NCBI GenBank assembly: GCA_007125415.1
Contig: SLDH01000230.1
Location: forward strand, 1 to 22,845
Source: Roseovarius sp.
Lineage (GTDB): Bacteria > Pseudomonadota > Alphaproteobacteria > Rhodobacterales > Rhodobacteraceae
DNA: 22,845 nucleotides
Reading direction: 5' to 3'
In this document: piece after piece, positions 11,704-20,022 of the stretch
Numbering within the stretch: the first letter of the stretch is position 1
Layout: each line of letters opens with the position of its first letter
Program-made: the position numbers and the translations under genes
The notes under the pieces: model-generated
The model's database searches: none
The model's input: the letters and a program-made list of their open reading frames with translations, nothing else
Told to the model about the DNA's origin: nothing

Positions 11704-12435
11704 TTACGCAAAAAGCCGATAGTAGAGCCAGTTGGGCATCAGGCGGGACAGGCGAAAGACGAAAGAAAAGAGCAAGGGGAAATGTTTGACGAAACGGCCT
11801 TCGTCGCACATCAGCTCGAAGATTTCCTGCGCGGCCGCGTCCGGCTCCATCAGGAAAGGCATCTTGAAGTCGTTCTTGTCGGTCAGGCGGGTCTTGATGA
11901 AGCCCGGATTGGCCAGTTGCACGCGCACATTGGTGCGCCACAGATCGGCCTGAAGGCTCTCCGCCAGCGCCATCACACCAGCCTTCGAGGGTGCATAGGC
12001 AATGGCGCCAGGCAACCCGCGAAAGCCCGAAAGCGAACCTGTCAGCACGATATGCCCCGAATCCCGCGCGACCATCTGCGGCACACAGGCCCCCAATACC
12101 CGAAACGCCCCGGTGAAATTGATATCGGCCATGGTCTCGGCCTGCTCGGCATTCCAGTCCTGTGCGCCGAAAGGCCAGTAGACACCGGCCAGAAAGACGA
12201 TCCCGTCAATCTCGCCTGCCTCTTTCGCGGCCGCCTCGACACTTTCGCGGCTTCCCACATCCACAGGCACGATCTGTGTCTTGCCGGGCAATTCCGCAGC
12301 AAGGGCCTGCAAACGCTCTTCATTACGCGCCGAAAGCACCACCTCGGCGCCGGCGCGGCTGATCTTTCTGGCCAGGGCTGCGCCCAGCCCCTCGCTGGCA
12401 CCGACCAGCCAATAGCGTTTGCCTTTCCACTCCAT
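11704..12435 (-). CDS. Short-chain dehydrogenase/reductase (last gene of the RpoE-linked operon)
   Basis: A 243-residue classical SDR. The cofactor loop is G12-A-S-E-G16-L-G18 near the N-terminus, and catalytic residues are Tyr147 and Lys151 in AYAPSKAG with Ser134 or Ser136 in LTGSLSG. The C-terminal region ends in an amphipathic, tryptophan- and tyrosine-rich tail (LMPNWLYYRLFA) that may contact membranes. Its ATG overlaps the stop of the DUF3833 gene (TGATG at 12433-12437), so its translation is coupled to that gene, which carries a premature stop further upstream. I recall that the corresponding R. sphaeroides operon (RSP1087-1091) also ends in an SDR gene. The substrate is unknown; a lipid-related ketone is possible. 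Confidence 0.87.
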   Translation of the reverse strand: MEWKGKRYWLVGASEGLGAALARKISRAGAEVVLSARNEERLQALAAELPGKTQIVPVDVGSRESVEAAAKEAGEIDGIVFLAGVYWPFGAQDWNAEQAETMADINFTGAFRVLGACVPQMVARDSGHIVLTGSLSGFRGLPGAIAYAPSKAGVMALAESLQADLWRTNVRVQLANPGFIKTRLTDKNDFKMPFLMEPDAAAQEIFELMCDEGRFVKHFPLLFSFVFRLSRLMPNWLYYRLFA

Positions 12436-12875
12436 CAGGGCCCATCCACGCGGCGCATCGTCGCCACCAGTTCGGCCACCTTGATGCCGAATTTACGAAA
12501 GACCGAGCGGTTCACGATTACCCCATCGGGGGCGACATACATCCAGTCGGTCACGCTCAGCACGTGCCCCCCCGCCTCCTCGGGCAGGCGAATGTTGTAA
12601 TTCAGTCTCAGTCCGTTGCCCATCTGCTGTCCCGTTCCCTGACCTACAAGATCGTCCGCATCCGCCTTCACGAAACCATCGTTTCCCAATTCCAGACGCC
12701 ACTCACGATCCTGTGTATTGCCACTATCATATCGAAAATGTTCGGTCATGACACCCCGGTTTCCATCCCATGTCGCATGGAAATCCGCCGAAAAACGCGA
12801 GCTTACCCGCCCCAGAGGCCCGTAAATCACCCCGTCGCACCTGATCGGCCCGTCGAGGTGCTTCCGCAGGTCCAT
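12435..12875 (-). CDS. DUF3833 family protein, 3' part of a gene split by an amber codon
   Basis: A 146-residue open frame starting at ATG 12875 and matching the DUF3833 family by pattern: GPLGRVSSRFSADFHATWDG, TEHFRYDSGNTQDREWRLEL, DLVGQGTGQQMGNGLRLNY and SVTDWMYVAPDGVIVNRSVF. The family is of unknown function, usually about 180 residues with an N-terminal membrane or lipoprotein segment. Here that segment lies in frame upstream (12906-12998) but is separated by TAG at 12906-12908. No ribosome site precedes ATG 12875. The domain itself looks intact. Either the protein is made without its membrane anchor by reinitiation, or the gene is a recent pseudogene, or the base is a sequencing error. 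Confidence 0.7.
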   Translation of the reverse strand: MDLRKHLDGPIRCDGVIYGPLGRVSSRFSADFHATWDGNRGVMTEHFRYDSGNTQDREWRLELGNDGFVKADADDLVGQGTGQQMGNGLRLNYNIRLPEEAGGHVLSVTDWMYVAPDGVIVNRSVFRKFGIKVAELVATMRRVDGP

Positions 12876-12905
12876 ATGCGGCGTGGCATCGGCATAATCT
12901 TCAGG

Positions 12906-12998
12906 CTACTGGGCAGAAAACCCGGCAAATCGCTCCCTGAGGAAGATCAGGATCAACACACCGGCCGCGCCGGCGAGAAACCATGTCAGCGCCGTCAT
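12906..12998 (-). pseudogene. 5' fragment of the DUF3833 gene: membrane segment ended by TAG
   Basis: ATG 12998 overlaps the TGA of the upstream MFS gene (ATGA at 12995-12998), as at other junctions of this operon. It opens a 30-codon frame, MTALTWFLAGAAGVLILIFL then RERFAGFSAQ, a single hydrophobic helix followed by a basic residue. The frame ends at TAG (12908-12906) and continues, still in frame, as PEDYADATPH and then the DUF3833 domain. CAG or AAG to TAG would need one base change. This is direct evidence that the original gene ran 12998-12435 (187 residues). Confidence 0.7.
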
Positions 12999-14257
12999 GT
13001 GGATGCACTCCTTTCGGTTTGTGATGTCTCTAGAGGTGTCGTGACCAGAAGCCCGATGGCCACCAGTTTCAGCACGCAAGGGAGCGCGCCATAGAGCAGG
13101 CTGAGCAGGAGCAGCGCTTCCGCATCATTGGGGCCCTCGGGCGTGAACCCGCCCAACTCCAGCATCGGCAGCAGGAACACCGCCGCCAGTGCCAGCGTGA
13201 ACTTGGACACGAAGGACCAGAGCCCGAAAGCCTCGCTCGCGCCCGGTGAAACCTCGGCCATGCGCCGGGCAAAGAGCGCGGCCAGCAAAGTCATGTCTGC
13301 CCCCAAGGCAAGGCCCGAGGCGAAACAGATCAGCGCAAAGGCAAGGATATCGCCCGGCCCCAGCGTCACTGCGAAGGCGAAGGCCACGATCGAAAGCACC
13401 ATCCCCGTCAGCAGCACGCGCTTGGCGCCGAAGGTTTCCGCAATCCGCCCCCAGAAGGGTGCACCCAGTGCCGCCGAAAGAAAGAAGAGCAGCAGAAACG
13501 GCCCCTCCATCCCCGGTGCATCGAGACGGCTTTCCACAAAAAACAGAAAGAGGGTGGAACTGACCGCCACAGGGGCCGCATTGACAAGCGCCACCATGAG
13601 CAGGCGCCGCGCGGTGAAGTCGCGCAGAACCCGCATGAAGCCGAACTGCTCCATCGCTCCTGGCGCCGCGCCACGCCATTGCCCTCGCATGGCCCAGAGT
13701 GCGAGAAACCCGAGGATCACGAAAGCCAGCGTAAAGCCCACATAACCGCCCAGCGCCACCGGGGCGACCGCTGCAGCACAGACGCCCAGAAGCGCGCCTG
13801 TCTCGCGCCACCGCGCAAGGCGCACATGGCCGAAGACTGGCAAGCTTTCGGCGGCGCTCACGCCCTGAGCATAAAAGCAGATGGTGAGGTAGCTGAAGGC
13901 CGAAAAGACAAAGGTCAGCATGACCGCAAACCACGCCAGCGGCGTGATCGGCGGCGGCACCACGAATAGCCCCAGCATGGAAAGCATCAGGATCAGCACG
14001 GCGACAAGCACCGTGGCCGCGCGCCACTCTTCCATCGCCCGCGCGGCGCGCCCCAGAAGCGGGTCCTGCACGAAATCAAGGAGGCGCAACAGGCCCAGCA
14101 CCAGCCCCAGCGCCCCCAGTGACACGCCGTATTCATCCACATAGAATTTCGGCGCGTGGATATAGAGCGGCAGGCCCGCCGCCGCCAGAAAGGCGCCGAA
14201 GATGGCATAGCCCGGCAAGCGCGGCACCCATGGCGCTTGCGGCGGGTTGTACCTCAT
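12995..14257 (-). CDS. MFS transporter of the GPH/MelB-like (MFS_2) type
   Basis: A 420-residue integral membrane protein with about twelve hydrophobic segments. The N-terminal half carries YIHAPKFYVDEYGVSLGALG and LLDFVQDPLLGRAARAMEEWR, matching the conserved R/D...DP loop of glycoside-pentoside-hexuronide:cation symporters. The second half has the FWGRIAETFGAKRVLLTGM repeat of that loop. Such carriers move sugars or other solutes with a cation; the substrate here is not readable. ATG 14257 overlaps the DUF1365 stop by 4 bases, and its own stop overlaps the start of the DUF3833 gene by 4 bases. I recall that the R. sphaeroides counterpart operon has a transporter at the same place. Confidence 0.85.
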   Translation of the reverse strand: MRYNPPQAPWVPRLPGYAIFGAFLAAAGLPLYIHAPKFYVDEYGVSLGALGLVLGLLRLLDFVQDPLLGRAARAMEEWRAATVLVAVLILMLSMLGLFVVPPPITPLAWFAVMLTFVFSAFSYLTICFYAQGVSAAESLPVFGHVRLARWRETGALLGVCAAAVAPVALGGYVGFTLAFVILGFLALWAMRGQWRGAAPGAMEQFGFMRVLRDFTARRLLMVALVNAAPVAVSSTLFLFFVESRLDAPGMEGPFLLLFFLSAALGAPFWGRIAETFGAKRVLLTGMVLSIVAFAFAVTLGPGDILAFALICFASGLALGADMTLLAALFARRMAEVSPGASEAFGLWSFVSKFTLALAAVFLLPMLELGGFTPEGPNDAEALLLLSLLYGALPCVLKLVAIGLLVTTPLETSQTERSAST

Positions 14258-15009
14258 CGGCTCACCTCATCTGCCGGCGGCTCTGGTCGATGGGCGAAGG
14301 TGGCCCCTTTCCACCAGAGCTTGAGCGCCTGCCAGTGAATGAGCGCCAGAACACGGCGCGAACCGAAGGGGCGCCGCAGGCACGCGCGCAAAAGGCCCGC
14401 ATTCGTGAGCGGCTTGCAGGCCCCGTGCAGCGTGGCGGTCACGCCGCCATTGCCGGCAGTGAAGTCGATCCAGATGCCGATCCGGTCCGGCCGCAGATCA
14501 TAGCGGAACTCATAGGCGCCATCGATGATCTGAAAGGGAGAGACGTGGAAGACCTTGCGGGCATGCAACCGGTCGGACGCCGCGATTGGCGCCAGATCAT
14601 CACGGTGGCACAGATAGGAATGGCGGTCGCCATAGGTGTTGCTCACCTCGGCGATGATCACCGGCACCTGCCCGTCGGCATCCCGGCAGATCCAGAACGC
14701 CACCGGGTTGAAGACATGGCCGAGGATGCGTGGTTGCGCGATCAGTTCTATTCGCGCGGGGACAGGCAAGTCATGAGCGGCAAGCACCTCGCGCACCCAC
14801 GCCGCCCCGCGCCCCTGTTTCGGCACCCCACCGTGATCGATATCCCAAAGCGAGGCAAGCCCCCGGCGGTTTCGCCCGAAAAGCGCGGGTGCTCTGGCGG
14901 GCGCCTCTGCATCGGTCCAGACATAATCGATGGAGTAGCGAAAGGCGTTCTCCACCGCGCCCTTGCGCCCATGCCATGTCTGGCCCGCGATATGCCTAAG
15001 CTGGCTCAC
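14254..15009 (-). CDS. DUF1365 family protein (probable furan-fatty-acid operon member)
   Basis: A 251-residue DUF1365 protein starting with GTG 15009: (M)SQLRHIAGQTWHGRKGAVENAF, then the family core FRYSIDYVWTD, HVFNPVAFWIC and VIIAEVSNTYGDRHSYL. The frame is open further upstream to 15174, but GTG 15009 overlaps the stop of the preceding gene (GTGA at 15006-15009) and gives the usual family length. DUF1365 genes commonly neighbour FAD amine-oxidase-like genes and cyclopropane-synthase-like genes in lipid operons. My recollection is that the R. sphaeroides homologue is UfaO, proposed to incorporate oxygen into furan fatty acids; I hold this at moderate confidence. No transmembrane helix is obvious, so it may act on phospholipid acyl chains at the membrane surface. 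Confidence 0.85.
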   Translation of the reverse strand: MSQLRHIAGQTWHGRKGAVENAFRYSIDYVWTDAEAPARAPALFGRNRRGLASLWDIDHGGVPKQGRGAAWVREVLAAHDLPVPARIELIAQPRILGHVFNPVAFWICRDADGQVPVIIAEVSNTYGDRHSYLCHRDDLAPIAASDRLHARKVFHVSPFQIIDGAYEFRYDLRPDRIGIWIDFTAGNGGVTATLHGACKPLTNAGLLRACLRRPFGSRRVLALIHWQALKLWWKGATFAHRPEPPADEVSR

Positions 15010-16304
15010 TGCGCTGCCACCTGCGGCTGACTGCGCGCGTTCAACGCCGAGACGACGTCGAGCGCGGTTGCAAGCCCGTCCTCGTGAAAGCCGTGGCGCA
15101 TCCACGCCCCGCAAAACCAGGTGTTGTTGGTGCCATTGGTGGCACGGATACGTGCCTGCGCCTCGAGCGCGCACATGTCGAAGACAGGATGATGCATCGT
15201 CACCTGATCGTGGATCAGGTCTTCGCGGATGGGCCGCGCGCTGTTGAGTGTGACGAAAAGCGGATCATCGAGCGGGATCGGCTGCAATGAGTTCATCCAG
15301 TAGGTGATGTCGATCAACCCGCCCCCGGCGCCGGGACCTTCGGCATAATTCCACGAGGACCAGACGGCGCGGCGTTTGGGCATCACGCTCTCATCGGCAT
15401 GCAGCACCGCGTCATTCGCCTGATAGCGCACGGCGCCGAGGTCTGCCCGTTCCTGCGGGCTGGCATCGGCGAGAAGCTTAAGCGTCACGTCGGAATGGGT
15501 CGCGAAGACCACCTCATCAAAGCGCTGCCAGTCTGCCCCATGCGTTTTCACCTCCACCGCTTCGGCATCGCGCCGCACGGCCTGTACGGGGCAGCCCGCC
15601 CGGATGCTGACACCCTGATCGGCCATCGCGCGGCCCAGACGCTCGACATAGGTGATCGAGCCGCCTTGAACCGTGTACCACTGGTGCTGGCCATCATACC
15701 CCAGAAGCGCGTGGTTCTTGAAGAATTGCAGCATGGCATGGGCGGGAAAATCCATGATGCGTTCGGTCGGCGTTGACCAGATGGCCCCGGAGAAGGGCAA
15801 GAGGTAATATTCACGAAAATACCGCCCGAGGCGCATCCGTTCGATGAGTTGGCCAATGGTCAGGTTTCTGTCTTGTGCCACGGTGAGCGCGCCCGCATTG
15901 AAGCGGAATATGTCGCGAAGCATGCGCAAAAAGGCCGGGTTGAGCGCATTGCGGCGCTGCGCAAAGAAGGCTTTTGGCCCGTCGAGCCCGTATTCGATCC
16001 GCCCGCCTGCGACAGAGGCACCAAAGCTCATGCGGCTTTCGGTGATCGGCACCTGAAGCCGCTCGAATAGCGCGGTGAGATTGGGGTAGTTTATGTGGTT
16101 GAAAACGATGAAGCCGGTATCTACCGGCTGGTCGCCGCGTTTGCCGGCAAGCTTGGTGCGCGCATGTCCGCCAAGGCGCGGCTCAGCTTCGAAGAGCGTC
16201 ACCTCATGGGTCTCACTCAGGACATAGGCCGCGCCCATGCCAGATATGCCCGCGCCGACTACAGCGACTTTACGACGCAGAGCCGCGCCTGATCCAGATG
16301 TCAT
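15006..16304 (-). CDS. FAD-dependent amine-oxidase-like oxidoreductase (probable UfaD-type lipid desaturase)
   Basis: A 432-residue flavoprotein. The N-terminus KVAVVGAGISGMGAAYVLSE is the FAD-binding fold, followed by VTLFEAEPRLGGHARTK, the RxGG(H)xxT motif of the amine oxidase/phytoene desaturase superfamily. The C-terminal TWFCGAWMRHGFHEDGLATA segment is the second FAD contact. ATG 16304 lies 27 bases from the inferred transcription start of an RpoE-like promoter. It is the first gene of a five-gene coupled operon divergent from rpoE-chrR, the same arrangement I recall for RSP1091-1087 of R. sphaeroides. There, to my recollection, the first product (UfaD) desaturates methylated vaccenoyl chains on the way to furan fatty acids. 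No UfaM-like methylase gene lies in the window. Confidence 0.87.
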   Translation of the reverse strand: MTSGSGAALRRKVAVVGAGISGMGAAYVLSETHEVTLFEAEPRLGGHARTKLAGKRGDQPVDTGFIVFNHINYPNLTALFERLQVPITESRMSFGASVAGGRIEYGLDGPKAFFAQRRNALNPAFLRMLRDIFRFNAGALTVAQDRNLTIGQLIERMRLGRYFREYYLLPFSGAIWSTPTERIMDFPAHAMLQFFKNHALLGYDGQHQWYTVQGGSITYVERLGRAMADQGVSIRAGCPVQAVRRDAEAVEVKTHGADWQRFDEVVFATHSDVTLKLLADASPQERADLGAVRYQANDAVLHADESVMPKRRAVWSSWNYAEGPGAGGGLIDITYWMNSLQPIPLDDPLFVTLNSARPIREDLIHDQVTMHHPVFDMCALEAQARIRATNGTNNTWFCGAWMRHGFHEDGLATALDVVSALNARSQPQVAAQ

Positions 16305-16420: not shown

Positions 16421-16479
16421 TCTACATGTATGATCAAGCCGTCGCATTTGACCATGGTGGAGTTGCAGCGAACTGCACA

Positions 16480-17088
16480 ATGGGAGTATCTGTCGCGCAG
16501 CCGCAGTCAGGCGGCACAGCGCAAGCGGATGCCGAAAACGTGACGGAAAGAGACATCGAAAACCACGAATGGGCGGAGTGTATCGCTGCCATCCGCGACC
16601 GGCAGAGCACGGCGGCCTTTGCTGTGCTGTTCGAGCATTTCGCACCGCGGGTGAAGGGCTTCCTGATGCGCAGCGGTGCAGATGAAGGGCTCGCGGAGGA
16701 ATGCGCGCAGGAAGTGATGGCCACGTTGTGGCGAAAGGCTCACCAGTTCGATCCGAGCCGGGCCAGCGCCGCGACATGGATTTTCACGATCGCGCGGAAC
16801 CGCCGGATCGACGCGATCCGCAAGCAACGCCGGCCCGAGCCCGAAGAGCTGAGCTGGGGGCCAGAACAGGAACCGGACCAGGAAGATGTGTTGGCTCTTC
16901 AACAGGAGTCGGAACAGTTGACCAAGGCCATCGCCGCCCTGCCTGACAAGCAGCGAGCCTTGATCGAGAAGGCTTATTTCGGCGATCTGAGCCATCGCGA
17001 GATTGCCGAGCAGACGGGATTGCCGCTCGGGACGATCAAATCACGCATACGGCTGGCGCTTGAGCGCCTGCGACATGAAATGACATGA
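16480..17088 (+). CDS. rpoE: RpoE, ECF11-type sigma factor of the singlet-oxygen response
   Basis: An ECF sigma factor of about 182-202 residues. Region 2 is seen as FAVLFEHFAPRVKGFLMRSG, ECAQEVMATLWRKAHQFDPS and ASAATWIFTIARNRRIDAIR, and region 4 as ALPDKQRALIEKAYFGDLSH, REIAEQTGLPLGTIKSRIRL. FAPRVKGFLMRSG and the region 2.3-2.4 text closely resemble R. sphaeroides RpoE, which directs transcription after singlet oxygen releases it from ChrR. Start codon: the promoter excludes ATG 16426; ATG 16480 is used here, while GTG 16540 (VTERDIENHEWAECIAAIRD) would give a length nearer that of the R. sphaeroides protein. Neither has a strong ribosome site. The chrR gene follows after 18 bases. Confidence 0.9.
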   Translation: MGVSVAQPQSGGTAQADAENVTERDIENHEWAECIAAIRDRQSTAAFAVLFEHFAPRVKGFLMRSGADEGLAEECAQEVMATLWRKAHQFDPSRASAATWIFTIARNRRIDAIRKQRRPEPEELSWGPEQEPDQEDVLALQQESEQLTKAIAALPDKQRALIEKAYFGDLSHREIAEQTGLPLGTIKSRIRLALERLRHEMT

Positions 17089-17106: not shown

Positions 17107-17754
17107 ATGAAAGACAAGATACAGCACCATCTCTCTGACGCCCTGCTCATGGCCTATTCGGCAGGTAGCTTGCCCGAAGCGTTCAGCCTCACGGTCGCGT
17201 CTCATATCGCGATGTGCGATGAATGCCGCGCCCGGCTTGAGGCGTTCGACAGTGTCGGTGGCGCGCTGATCGAGAGCGTCGAGACAGTGGCGATGGGTAA
17301 TGGCAGCCTGAAAGCCACGCTCGCAATGATTGGCGGCGCGATGACTGAGCGGCCGAAGGCTCGGGCGGTGACTGGGGTGTTGCCCTCTCCCTTGCACGAT
17401 TACATCGGAGGTGATCTGGATGATGTGAATTGGCGGCCGGTAGGCATGGGCGTGAAACAGGCGATCCTGCCCACATCGGATGAGGCCACGGCGCGGCTTC
17501 TTTACATACCGGCAGGGGTTGCCGTACCGGATCATGGCCATCAAGGGATGGAACTGACCTTGGTGTTGCAGGGCGCGTTCATGGATGAGAATGCGCATTT
17601 CGGCCCGGGTGATATCGAGATCGCCGATGAGCACATGCACCATACGCCCGTTGCCGCGCCAGGCATGGATTGCATCTGTCTCGCGGCAACGGATGCGCCT
17701 TTGCGCTTCCGCGGGTTGGTCCCACGCATCGCGCAGTCCTTCCTGAATATCTGA
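17107..17754 (+). CDS. chrR: ChrR, zinc-dependent anti-sigma factor with cupin domain
   Basis: A 215-residue ChrR/ZAS-type anti-sigma factor. The N-terminal anti-sigma domain binds zinc through a histidine near position 7-8, His33, Cys37 and Cys40 (SHIAMCDECR). The C-terminal cupin domain shows H143-G-H145-x3-E149 in PDHGHQGMELTLVLQGAF and a histidine at 178-179, matching the four cupin metal ligands of R. sphaeroides ChrR with an offset of two. In the known system the anti-sigma domain holds RpoE and the cupin domain is needed for release by singlet oxygen. It lies 18 bases after rpoE and shares its promoter. A pair of GC-rich hairpins follows. Confidence 0.92.
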   Translation: MKDKIQHHLSDALLMAYSAGSLPEAFSLTVASHIAMCDECRARLEAFDSVGGALIESVETVAMGNGSLKATLAMIGGAMTERPKARAVTGVLPSPLHDYIGGDLDDVNWRPVGMGVKQAILPTSDEATARLLYIPAGVAVPDHGHQGMELTLVLQGAFMDENAHFGPGDIEIADEHMHHTPVAAPGMDCICLAATDAPLRFRGLVPRIAQSFLNI

Positions 17755-17913: not shown

Positions 17914-20022
17914 TCAGAGGAATGCGGCATAGGGAATGTAGCGCACCGGATCCCCGGGGGTTATGGTGTCCGCACCATCGGGCAGTTCCACGAGCCCTTC
18001 GGCCCAGCTCAGCCCACTGATCCGGCCCGAACCTTCCGATGCGAAGACCTCCGCATGGCCATCGCGGAAGCGAGCGCGCAGATATTCACGGCGGCCCGGC
18101 TTCTTGGATTTCCGGAAGGCCGCCGGAACCATGAAGCCCTCGGGCTGGTGCCACGCCGCACCGGACAAAAGCCGCATTGCGGGGCGCGCGAAGATCAGGG
18201 TGCAGACAAGTGCTGCCACAGGATTGCCCGGCAAGCCGAAAACCGGCATCCCCTTCCAGAGACCAAGGGCCAAGGGCCTCCCAGGCTTGAGGGCGATGCG
18301 CCATTCCGCCATCGCGCCCGCGTCTTCCAGAAGGGCAGAGACGTGATCCTCATCGCCCGATGAGGCACCGCCCGAGGTCAGGATCATGTGGGATCGTGCT
18401 GCGGCTTCGTCCAGCCTGTCGCGCAGGGCCGCGCGGTCATCGGGCACGATCCCCATATCGACGGGCAGATAGCCAAACTGCGCAACAAGGGCGCAGAGCA
18501 TCGGGCGATTGGCGTCATGGGTCTGGCCCGTTTTGGCCGGATGTCCGGCCTCGCACAGTTCATCGCCGGTGGAGAGCACCGCCACGCGCAAGCGCTCGTG
18601 AAGCGCAAGCTCGGGCCCCGCGCCGACCGCGGCGACAAGCGCCAGATCGGCCGGGGTGAGCACGCGACCCGGTCCCAGAAGCTGTGCACCCGCCTCGACA
18701 TCCTCACCGGCCTTGCGGGTATTGGCGCCTGCTTTGATCCCGGCGCGGAAGGCGATGGCGCCCTCGCCCTGTGTCACATCCTCCTGAAGCACCACCGTAT
18801 CGACCCCCTGGGGCAGCACCGCGCCTGTGAGGATCCGAATGGCCGAGCCATGGGGCACGGCACCCTGAAAAGGTGCGCCTGCCGCCGCGCGCCCGGCGAT
18901 CAGCGGCAAGACCGGCGCTTCTCCATCAATTGCCGCATGGGCAAAGCCGTAGCCATCCACGGCGGTATTGGCCTGTGCCGGGTTGGCACGGCGCGCGATC
19001 ACCGGCGCGGCCAGTACCCGGCCCAGCGCTTCACCCATCGGCGCACGTTCCACCCCCACCACCGGGTGCAGCCTTTCCTTCAGTCGCGTGAGCACCGTGT
19101 CCACAGGGGTCCATGCCACCCCGGCGGGCAGGGCGAAACAATCATTGCACAAGGGCGGTGGTTTCAGATCCGGCAGGAGGCTGCGCTCAAGCTCCTTTTC
19201 GTGGCCAAGCCCCAGGATCCAGCCTTCCTCCGGGGCGTCTGCTGCCAACATGGCGCGCAGCGCCTCGCCGGGCAATCGCGCGAGAGCTCGCGCGAGCAGC
19301 CGCACCTGATGCGCATCGCGGATGCCGCCGGAGGCCTCGGCCTGCTGCACATGACTGTTGATCAGCCCCGGCCAAATTTCGACGAGGGTCACTGGGGCTG
19401 ATTCCGGCGGCTCGAACGGCCAGACCGCGACCTGCCCGGCAAAGCGCTGCCGCAAGCGGTGCAGGACAGGCAGGCCCGTGAGCACCTGCCCGCCCACAGC
19501 CCCCGCGCCACCCAGTTGCCAGCAGCTGAACGCGCCTTTGAGGGCAACCTCGCAGGTCCGCCGCTCGGCCATGCCATGGCCGGCGCGCATATCCTTGCGG
19601 GGCAGATCGGGGATATCGCGCTTGAGCCCGTTGAACCAGAAAGGGCCGACGCCCGGAAAGTGGCGGTTGATTTCCGCCGCAAGATCAAAGCGGTTGTTGG
19701 CGCTCGGGTTGTCTTCCAGGCGCTCAGCCAGCCATGCCCAAACCGCAAAGGGGTCCGCCTGTCCGGTCAGGGCTTCGGCAAGTCCCTGCGGGTAGCCAAA
19801 AGGAAAGTCGAACCCGAGGCAGAGCCGCCGTCCCGCCGCAAGCTCTTGCTCGATGAGATCGGCGATCGCCGTCTCTGCGACAGCGCGGTTCCGCAGGTAG
19901 CCCGGCGCGGCCTCGATACCCTCGCGCACCAGCCCCAGCCAGATCGCGTCCTTGCGTGGCGTCGGGCCCGTGTCATTGCCCGCGGACCAGTCCACGATGG
20001 CAAAGCTGTCAAAAAGACTCAC
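17914..20022 (-). CDS. moeA: DUF429-MoeA fusion, molybdopterin molybdotransferase
   Basis: A 702-residue two-part protein. Residues 1 to about 285 resemble a DUF429-type RNase H-like fold: FAIVDWSAGND at the first strand, CLGFDFPFGYP, VTLVEIWPGL and RDAHQVRLLARAL. After a short LCNDC linker (291-295), residues 297-702 form MoeA: ANTAVDGYGFAHAAI (domain III start), GVDTVVLQEDV, LSTGDELCEAG, TSGGASSGDEDHV and GLPGNPVAALVC. MoeA inserts molybdate into adenylylated molybdopterin. MoeA alone is about 400 residues, so the N-terminal 290 are an addition; the role of that domain is unknown. GTG 20022 overlaps the MobB stop by 4 bases (GTGA). It is the last gene of the fdhD-mobA-mobB-moeA cluster. Confidence 0.88.
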   Translation of the reverse strand: MSLFDSFAIVDWSAGNDTGPTPRKDAIWLGLVREGIEAAPGYLRNRAVAETAIADLIEQELAAGRRLCLGFDFPFGYPQGLAEALTGQADPFAVWAWLAERLEDNPSANNRFDLAAEINRHFPGVGPFWFNGLKRDIPDLPRKDMRAGHGMAERRTCEVALKGAFSCWQLGGAGAVGGQVLTGLPVLHRLRQRFAGQVAVWPFEPPESAPVTLVEIWPGLINSHVQQAEASGGIRDAHQVRLLARALARLPGEALRAMLAADAPEEGWILGLGHEKELERSLLPDLKPPPLCNDCFALPAGVAWTPVDTVLTRLKERLHPVVGVERAPMGEALGRVLAAPVIARRANPAQANTAVDGYGFAHAAIDGEAPVLPLIAGRAAAGAPFQGAVPHGSAIRILTGAVLPQGVDTVVLQEDVTQGEGAIAFRAGIKAGANTRKAGEDVEAGAQLLGPGRVLTPADLALVAAVGAGPELALHERLRVAVLSTGDELCEAGHPAKTGQTHDANRPMLCALVAQFGYLPVDMGIVPDDRAALRDRLDEAAARSHMILTSGGASSGDEDHVSALLEDAGAMAEWRIALKPGRPLALGLWKGMPVFGLPGNPVAALVCTLIFARPAMRLLSGAAWHQPEGFMVPAAFRKSKKPGRREYLRARFRDGHAEVFASEGSGRISGLSWAEGLVELPDGADTITPGDPVRYIPYAAFL

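Follow-up and report, generated by a model that had tools for sequence, protein, structure and literature searches.

The DUF3833 gene of a Roseovarius sp. draft genome is interrupted by one in-frame amber codon directly behind its N-terminal membrane helix, which raises the question of whether the protein has been lost, is made in two pieces, is made by reading through the stop, or is interrupted only in the assembled sequence. The window, the whole stretch of 22,845 nucleotides that was analysed, carries the gene as a single minus-strand frame (12998–12435) of 187 codons, TAG counted, where an uninterrupted frame would be expected of a DUF3833/RSP_1088-type protein. The DUF3833 domain and the N-terminal helix are both present, in the matching frame and at the matching place in the operon, and the TAG now severs the helix. 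The parts of the gene are:

13015-13008, minus strand: Shine-Dalgarno-like GAAAGGAG upstream of the DUF3833 start, read from the sequence
12996..12998, minus strand: DUF3833 start ATG, overlapping the MFS stop TGA 12997-12995 (ATGA), placed from the sequence and homologous starts
12909..12998, minus strand: N-terminal membrane helix, 30 codons (MTALTWFLAGAAGVLILIFLRERFAGFSAQ), from hydropathy and from the modelled structure of an intact relative (helix 2-29)
12906..12908, minus strand: in-frame TAG, a sense codon in 119/119 relatives with a matchable column
12827..12895, minus strand: out-of-frame 22-codon ORF from the ORF scan, with ATGs at 12895 and 12889, both between the TAG and ATG 12875
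12873..12875, minus strand: first in-frame ATG past the TAG, a possible restart, beginning 30 nt behind the stop, with no Shine-Dalgarno motif in the scan
12435..12905, minus strand: remainder of the DUF3833 frame, holding the full domain and the stop (PF12915, 1.9e-49)

Ten sense codons follow the TAG, then ATG 12875 and the DUF3833 domain; the frame closes with TGA 12437-12435, which shares a base with the SDR ATG at 12435 (TGATG). The domain matches PF12915 over profile positions 13-163 of 163 with 167.8 bits (cut-off 25), and the best 19-residue mean hydropathy of the helix is 2.2. The sequence-only reading that drew attention to the locus had this anatomy right (ATGA coupling, 30 hydrophobic codons, TAG, ten codons, ATG 12875), and the length it called family-like is so: 187 codons including the TAG compare with mostly 184–195 residues in relatives and 186 residues given for RSP1088 in the available text of PMC7380195. 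No Rfam family reaches its gathering score anywhere in the window, and RNA structure downstream of the TAG is unremarkable (z-score -1.96, with 9 of 200 shuffles folding at least as well).

The neighbouring genes suggest what the intact protein would belong to:

11704..12435, minus strand: SDR gene with a start that overlaps the end of the DUF3833 gene (TGATG), RSP_1087-like by place (adh_short 1e-42; PMC3818230)
12995..14257, minus strand: MFS_2 transporter gene, RSP_1089-like by place (PF13347 1.3e-48)
14254..15174, minus strand: DUF1365 gene, UfaO/RSP_1090-like by place (PF07103 5.3e-66)
15006..16304, minus strand: FAD amine-oxidase-family gene, UfaD/RSP_1091-like by place (PF01593 5.3e-20)
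16426..17088, plus strand: rpoE-like ECF sigma factor gene, pointing away from the operon (family match)
17107..17754, plus strand: ChrR-family anti-sigma factor gene (TIGR02451, 218 bits, cut-off 124.5)

The order amine oxidase, DUF1365, MFS, DUF3833, SDR next to rpoE-chrR is that of the RSP_1091-1087 operon as laid out in the relevant part of PMC3818230. Judged by order, size and family, the window gene thus corresponds to RSP_1088 in the sigmaE-ChrR singlet-oxygen operon. Singlet oxygen raises RSP_1088 in the values available from PMC7074977 (log2 1.1 and 0.8), and a core regulon table in PMC5507510 includes it, with a Pseudomonas syringae counterpart annotated as a lipoprotein. Furan fatty acid requires RSP1090 (UfaO) and RSP1091 (UfaD), as stated in the available text of PMC7380195. 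The DUF1365 gene is listed above from GTG 15174; a start at GTG 15009, overlapping the upstream stop, is more likely. Two further observations concern the neighbourhood. In its own tree, the MFS_2 gene (12995-14257, minus strand) has the longest tip branch among 46 taxa (0.42, against a median of 0.06), and a 702-residue frame at 17914-20022 (minus strand) has MoeA domains from residue 306, behind approximately 300 N-terminal residues with no Pfam match.

Comparison with relatives bears on whether the gene was ever read as one frame. DUF3833 matches occur in 72 of 120 genomes close to the window's own genome; the comparison set comprises 54 loci from near genomes, the best 80 of 568 further loci, and the window (135 in all), from which removal of 14 duplicates leaves 120 distinct relatives and the window. 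Among named relatives, Roseovarius and uncultured Rhodobacteraceae stand nearest. Not one of the 120 distinct relatives has a stop within the frame; in one (L049) the frame runs into the contig end, and the other 119 terminate in a stop. The residues at the amber column in the 119 matchable relatives are of 11 kinds, and the flanking codons align with the family, the downstream PEDYA corresponding to xxDYx in most relatives. A clearly hydrophobic N-terminus (best 19-residue hydropathy window at least 1.6) is present in 117 of 120 relatives, 115 of 121 sequences, window included, have a mostly strong Shine-Dalgarno-like motif ahead of the start, and the relatives' start overlaps the transporter gene or sits just behind it. 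Since no relative contains a stop, and the helix, the Shine-Dalgarno motif and the coupled start are common among the relatives, the sequence comparison supports a DUF3833 gene that was formerly continuous from the coupled ATG 12998, with an amber codon that now parts anchor from domain. The proposed former read-through from the coupled ATG is thereby borne out. Homologues that start at the position of ATG 12875 and lack a hydrophobic segment had been named as the observation that would speak against it; all 120 relatives examined start upstream of that position, which rules out ATG 12875 as the genuine gene start.

If the TAG is real, translation could resume behind it, and the lineage might even have evolved to make a membrane peptide and a soluble barrel separately, through termination and restart. 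The in-frame ATG starts only 30 nt past the stop, and the barrel would probably lie in the cytoplasm with or without its anchor, both of which suit such a split. However, none of the 120 relatives is split, ATG 12875 lacks a Shine-Dalgarno motif, the two nearer ATGs are out of frame, and the relatives have Met at this position in only 10 of 120 cases (7 could not be matched), so that neither mark of a reinitiation site was found, a Shine-Dalgarno motif in the window or a start conserved across the 120 relatives. Restart is possible and bears no sign of selection; an evolved split is very improbable, and we reject it together with programmed readthrough.

The expectation about the barrel comes from the predicted structure of an intact relative, which consists of one helix (2-29) and a nitrobindin/fatty-acid-binding-like barrel, ten-stranded and of calycin type in the model. 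In 115 of 120 relatives, lysine and arginine are commoner on the C-terminal side of the helix than on its N-terminal side (1 opposite, 4 equal). Under the positive-inside rule, by which positively charged residues flanking a membrane helix lie on the cytoplasmic side, this excess would place the barrel in the cytoplasm. The intact protein would be a lipocalin-like (nitrobindin/FABP-type) barrel on a membrane helix, probably on the cytoplasmic side. A search of solved structures by sequence gave a single match, a synthetic antibody (E 0.088), which we take as chance, and none of the three papers found on DUF3833 concerns its function by title and abstract.

A true recent nonsense mutation would release a 30-residue hydrophobic peptide, and the barrel would be lost or made at a low level, anchorless, from ATG 12875; translation of the TGATG-coupled SDR gene may also fall. 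Such a fall had been proposed from the window alone, and it is plausible in that the stop codon of DUF3833 shares bases with an ATG or GTG in 98 of 119 relatives and an SDR gene with more than 85% cover was seen next to DUF3833 in 109; the effect itself is a prediction. The TAG stands in the sequence as given, and a profile search of the own genome, a draft that is 87% complete, gave a single DUF3833 match. In a chrR-deleted Rhodobacter sphaeroides strain, in-frame deletion of RSP1087, RSP1088 or RSP1089 left the fatty-acid profile unchanged in the available account of PMC7380195, so loss of the gene may be tolerated. Against this, the signs of a decayed pseudogene, further lesions and relaxed constraint, were not seen in the window DUF3833 when compared with 45 relatives. 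It has no changes at the 49 columns invariant among these relatives (SDR 2/81, MFS 4/137), its tip branch is 0.17 as against 0.22 for SDR and 0.42 for MFS with the same 46 taxa, and its root-to-tip distance ranks 23 of 46. A true mutation must then be very young. Sequence intactness of this kind is compatible with a sequence error, with a mutation of very recent date or with continued production of the protein.

The genome, whose draft comprises 3.09 Mb and 410 contigs, was also examined for lesions of the same kind. Stops were scanned in 843 kb of it (27%; 93 pieces including the window; approximately 475 kb of strong coding sequence), with 400 kb of a same-genus genome (G008; approximately 10 contigs, 99% complete) as control, in 20 pieces with 138 kb of strong coding sequence. 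Three conserved genes in the sample each contain one in-frame TAG: DUF3833, a DUF4159 gene and dnaX. First, the dnaX stop (L183, G000:C276, 649-651, plus strand) lies 56 codons before the end, between two parts of the C-terminal PF12362. Second, the DUF4159 stop (L169, G000:C238, 610-612, plus strand) falls at a column where each of the 22 same-genus relatives has Glu. Both sites are open, in register and occupied by a sense codon in all 22 same-genus relatives. Each stop is flanked on either side by matches to the Pfam domain of its gene (DUF4159 or PF12362); in dnaX the segment after the TAG scores 24.1 bits, under the cut-off of 30.2. A fourth frame with an in-frame TAG (L311, G000:C233, 315, minus strand) was judged by eye; we take it to be transposase-like.

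The scan itself limits how these cases may be counted. Its final version gave 13 candidate stops in the own genome (7 TAG, 5 TGA, 1 TAA) and 8 in the control (5 TAA, 2 TAG, 1 TGA), of which 4 and 0 were judged real, by eye except for DUF4159 and dnaX, which were checked against relatives, and the window. The TAG candidates L176 7866 and L311 2013 and the TGA and TAA candidates were set aside by eye and could alter the TAG share. Simulated stops were recovered in 2294 of 3000 cases in the own genome and 2114 of 3000 in the control. Earlier scans of 184 kb and 486 kb had the window TAG below their thresholds, one scan with a poor coding model missed the DUF4159 site and another missed dnaX, while the final scan flagged all three conserved TAGs. 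A frameshift scan gave 20 startless candidates in the own genome and 3 in the control; many resemble antisense shadow frames by eye, and they were left out.

The recurrence of the lesion in two other conserved genes, dnaX included, weighs against an independent nonsense mutation in DUF3833, which we regard as a possibility of the second rank. TAG within dnaX favours a shared cause, either a consensus error or, less likely, amber suppression. Under amber suppression, the strain would read UAG part of the time as a residue and make the full-length protein, and UAG would have drifted into tolerant positions of conserved genes. All three conserved interruptions and the fourth, transposase-like frame are indeed TAG, and the DUF3833 column, with its 11 residue kinds, would accept many insertions. 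However, with the own codon usage approximately 60% of random nonsense changes would be TAG (50% counting G to T only), so that four of four has p ~0.13 (0.06 for G to T only) and three of three p ~0.22 (0.13), for cases that were partly chosen by eye; and the invariant Glu column of DUF4159 is not a tolerant one.

In the translation machinery, RF1 is present (prfA, 475 bits; cut-off 423), and TAG still terminates 39 of 402 strong genes, as compared with 18 of 116 in the control, so that neither hallmark of UAG reassignment, loss of RF1 or loss of TAG as a terminator, is found in the own genome. No CTA anticodon occurs among the 29 tRNAs found by a tRNA model in the 87% complete genome, a set that is incomplete because Ala, Ile and Tyr tRNAs are missing from it, which leaves some room for a suppressor. 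For pyrrolysine use, the own genome gives only two PylS matches, both below the cut-off; comparable matches arise in 13 of 14 control genomes, one of them over the cut-off. A literature search yielded no paper on an amber suppressor in Roseovarius, and a 2021 survey (PMC8629427) states that the bacterial stop reassignments known before it concern UGA. We consider amber suppression unlikely as the explanation of the DUF3833 stop. Slightly more doubtful still is the wider proposal that a free-living Roseovarius-type strain keeping RF1 reads UAG part-time as sense in DUF3833, DUF4159 and dnaX alike, amber codons having drifted into conserved genes.

The lesion looks like a one-base change private to this assembly, either a recent mutation or a sequencing error, and not like a new mechanism. 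We lean, with confidence just short of even, to a consensus error or minority variant, mainly because of the TAG in dnaX: it is difficult to believe that a replication gene has really lost its C-terminal end. The draft is fragmentary (410 contigs, 87% complete), two more conserved genes carry single TAGs in the 27% sampled, no relative of DUF3833 has a stop, and the domain behind the TAG is free of decay. We infer the consensus to be the common cause of all three TAGs. Two points count against this. Three nonsense sites in approximately 475 kb are not clearly above the control, where none was judged real in a stretch of only 138 kb, so that the nonsense rates are not clearly different; and random errors should also yield TGA, TAA and frameshifts, whereas all the interruptions judged real are TAG. 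If a consensus error is the cause, an ordinary RSP_1088-type gene, fourth in the sigmaE-ChrR singlet-oxygen/furan-fatty-acid operon, would encode a barrel held by an N-terminal membrane helix; a single base private to the assembly would create TAG at a variable codon that directly follows the helix; and the fragmentary draft would carry a wrong base or minority variant in its consensus, the cells making the normal protein. Of the four outcomes first listed for the locus, evolved reinitiation and readthrough find no support, and a base-call error or a recent nonsense mutation remain.

A lone nonsense codon in a single draft genome carries little weight, and a gene caller would here report a shortened soluble DUF3833 protein and miss its anchor. 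If true, UAG readthrough with an amber codon inside dnaX would be natural, tolerated amber suppression in a free-living bacterium.

As with nonsense alleles, pseudogenes and natural amber suppression, the locus has a gene that is intact but for one in-frame stop. Unlike pseudogenes, the DUF3833 gene shows no decay, and unlike systems of amber suppression, its genome yielded neither a suppressor tRNA among the 29 found nor a loss of RF1. The barrel predicted for the intact relative is of the type of nitrobindin and fatty-acid-binding proteins. Lipoprotein forms of DUF3833, such as L055 and the P. syringae counterpart so annotated in the table of PMC5507510, share the domain that the window gene matches over profile positions 13-163. 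L055 has a lipobox-like signal, the sole case among the 120, whereas in the proteins of Roseovarius type the helix looks uncleaved and has K/R after it; one and the same kind of barrel, known with either arrangement, may face opposite sides of the membrane. The closest counterpart is RSP_1088 of Rhodobacter sphaeroides, which, in the available text of PMC3818230, PMC7380195 and PMC7074977, agrees in gene order, in size (186 residues) and in standing beside sigmaE-ChrR; the window gene is likened to it by place, size and family, and differs in a frame broken by TAG behind the helix.
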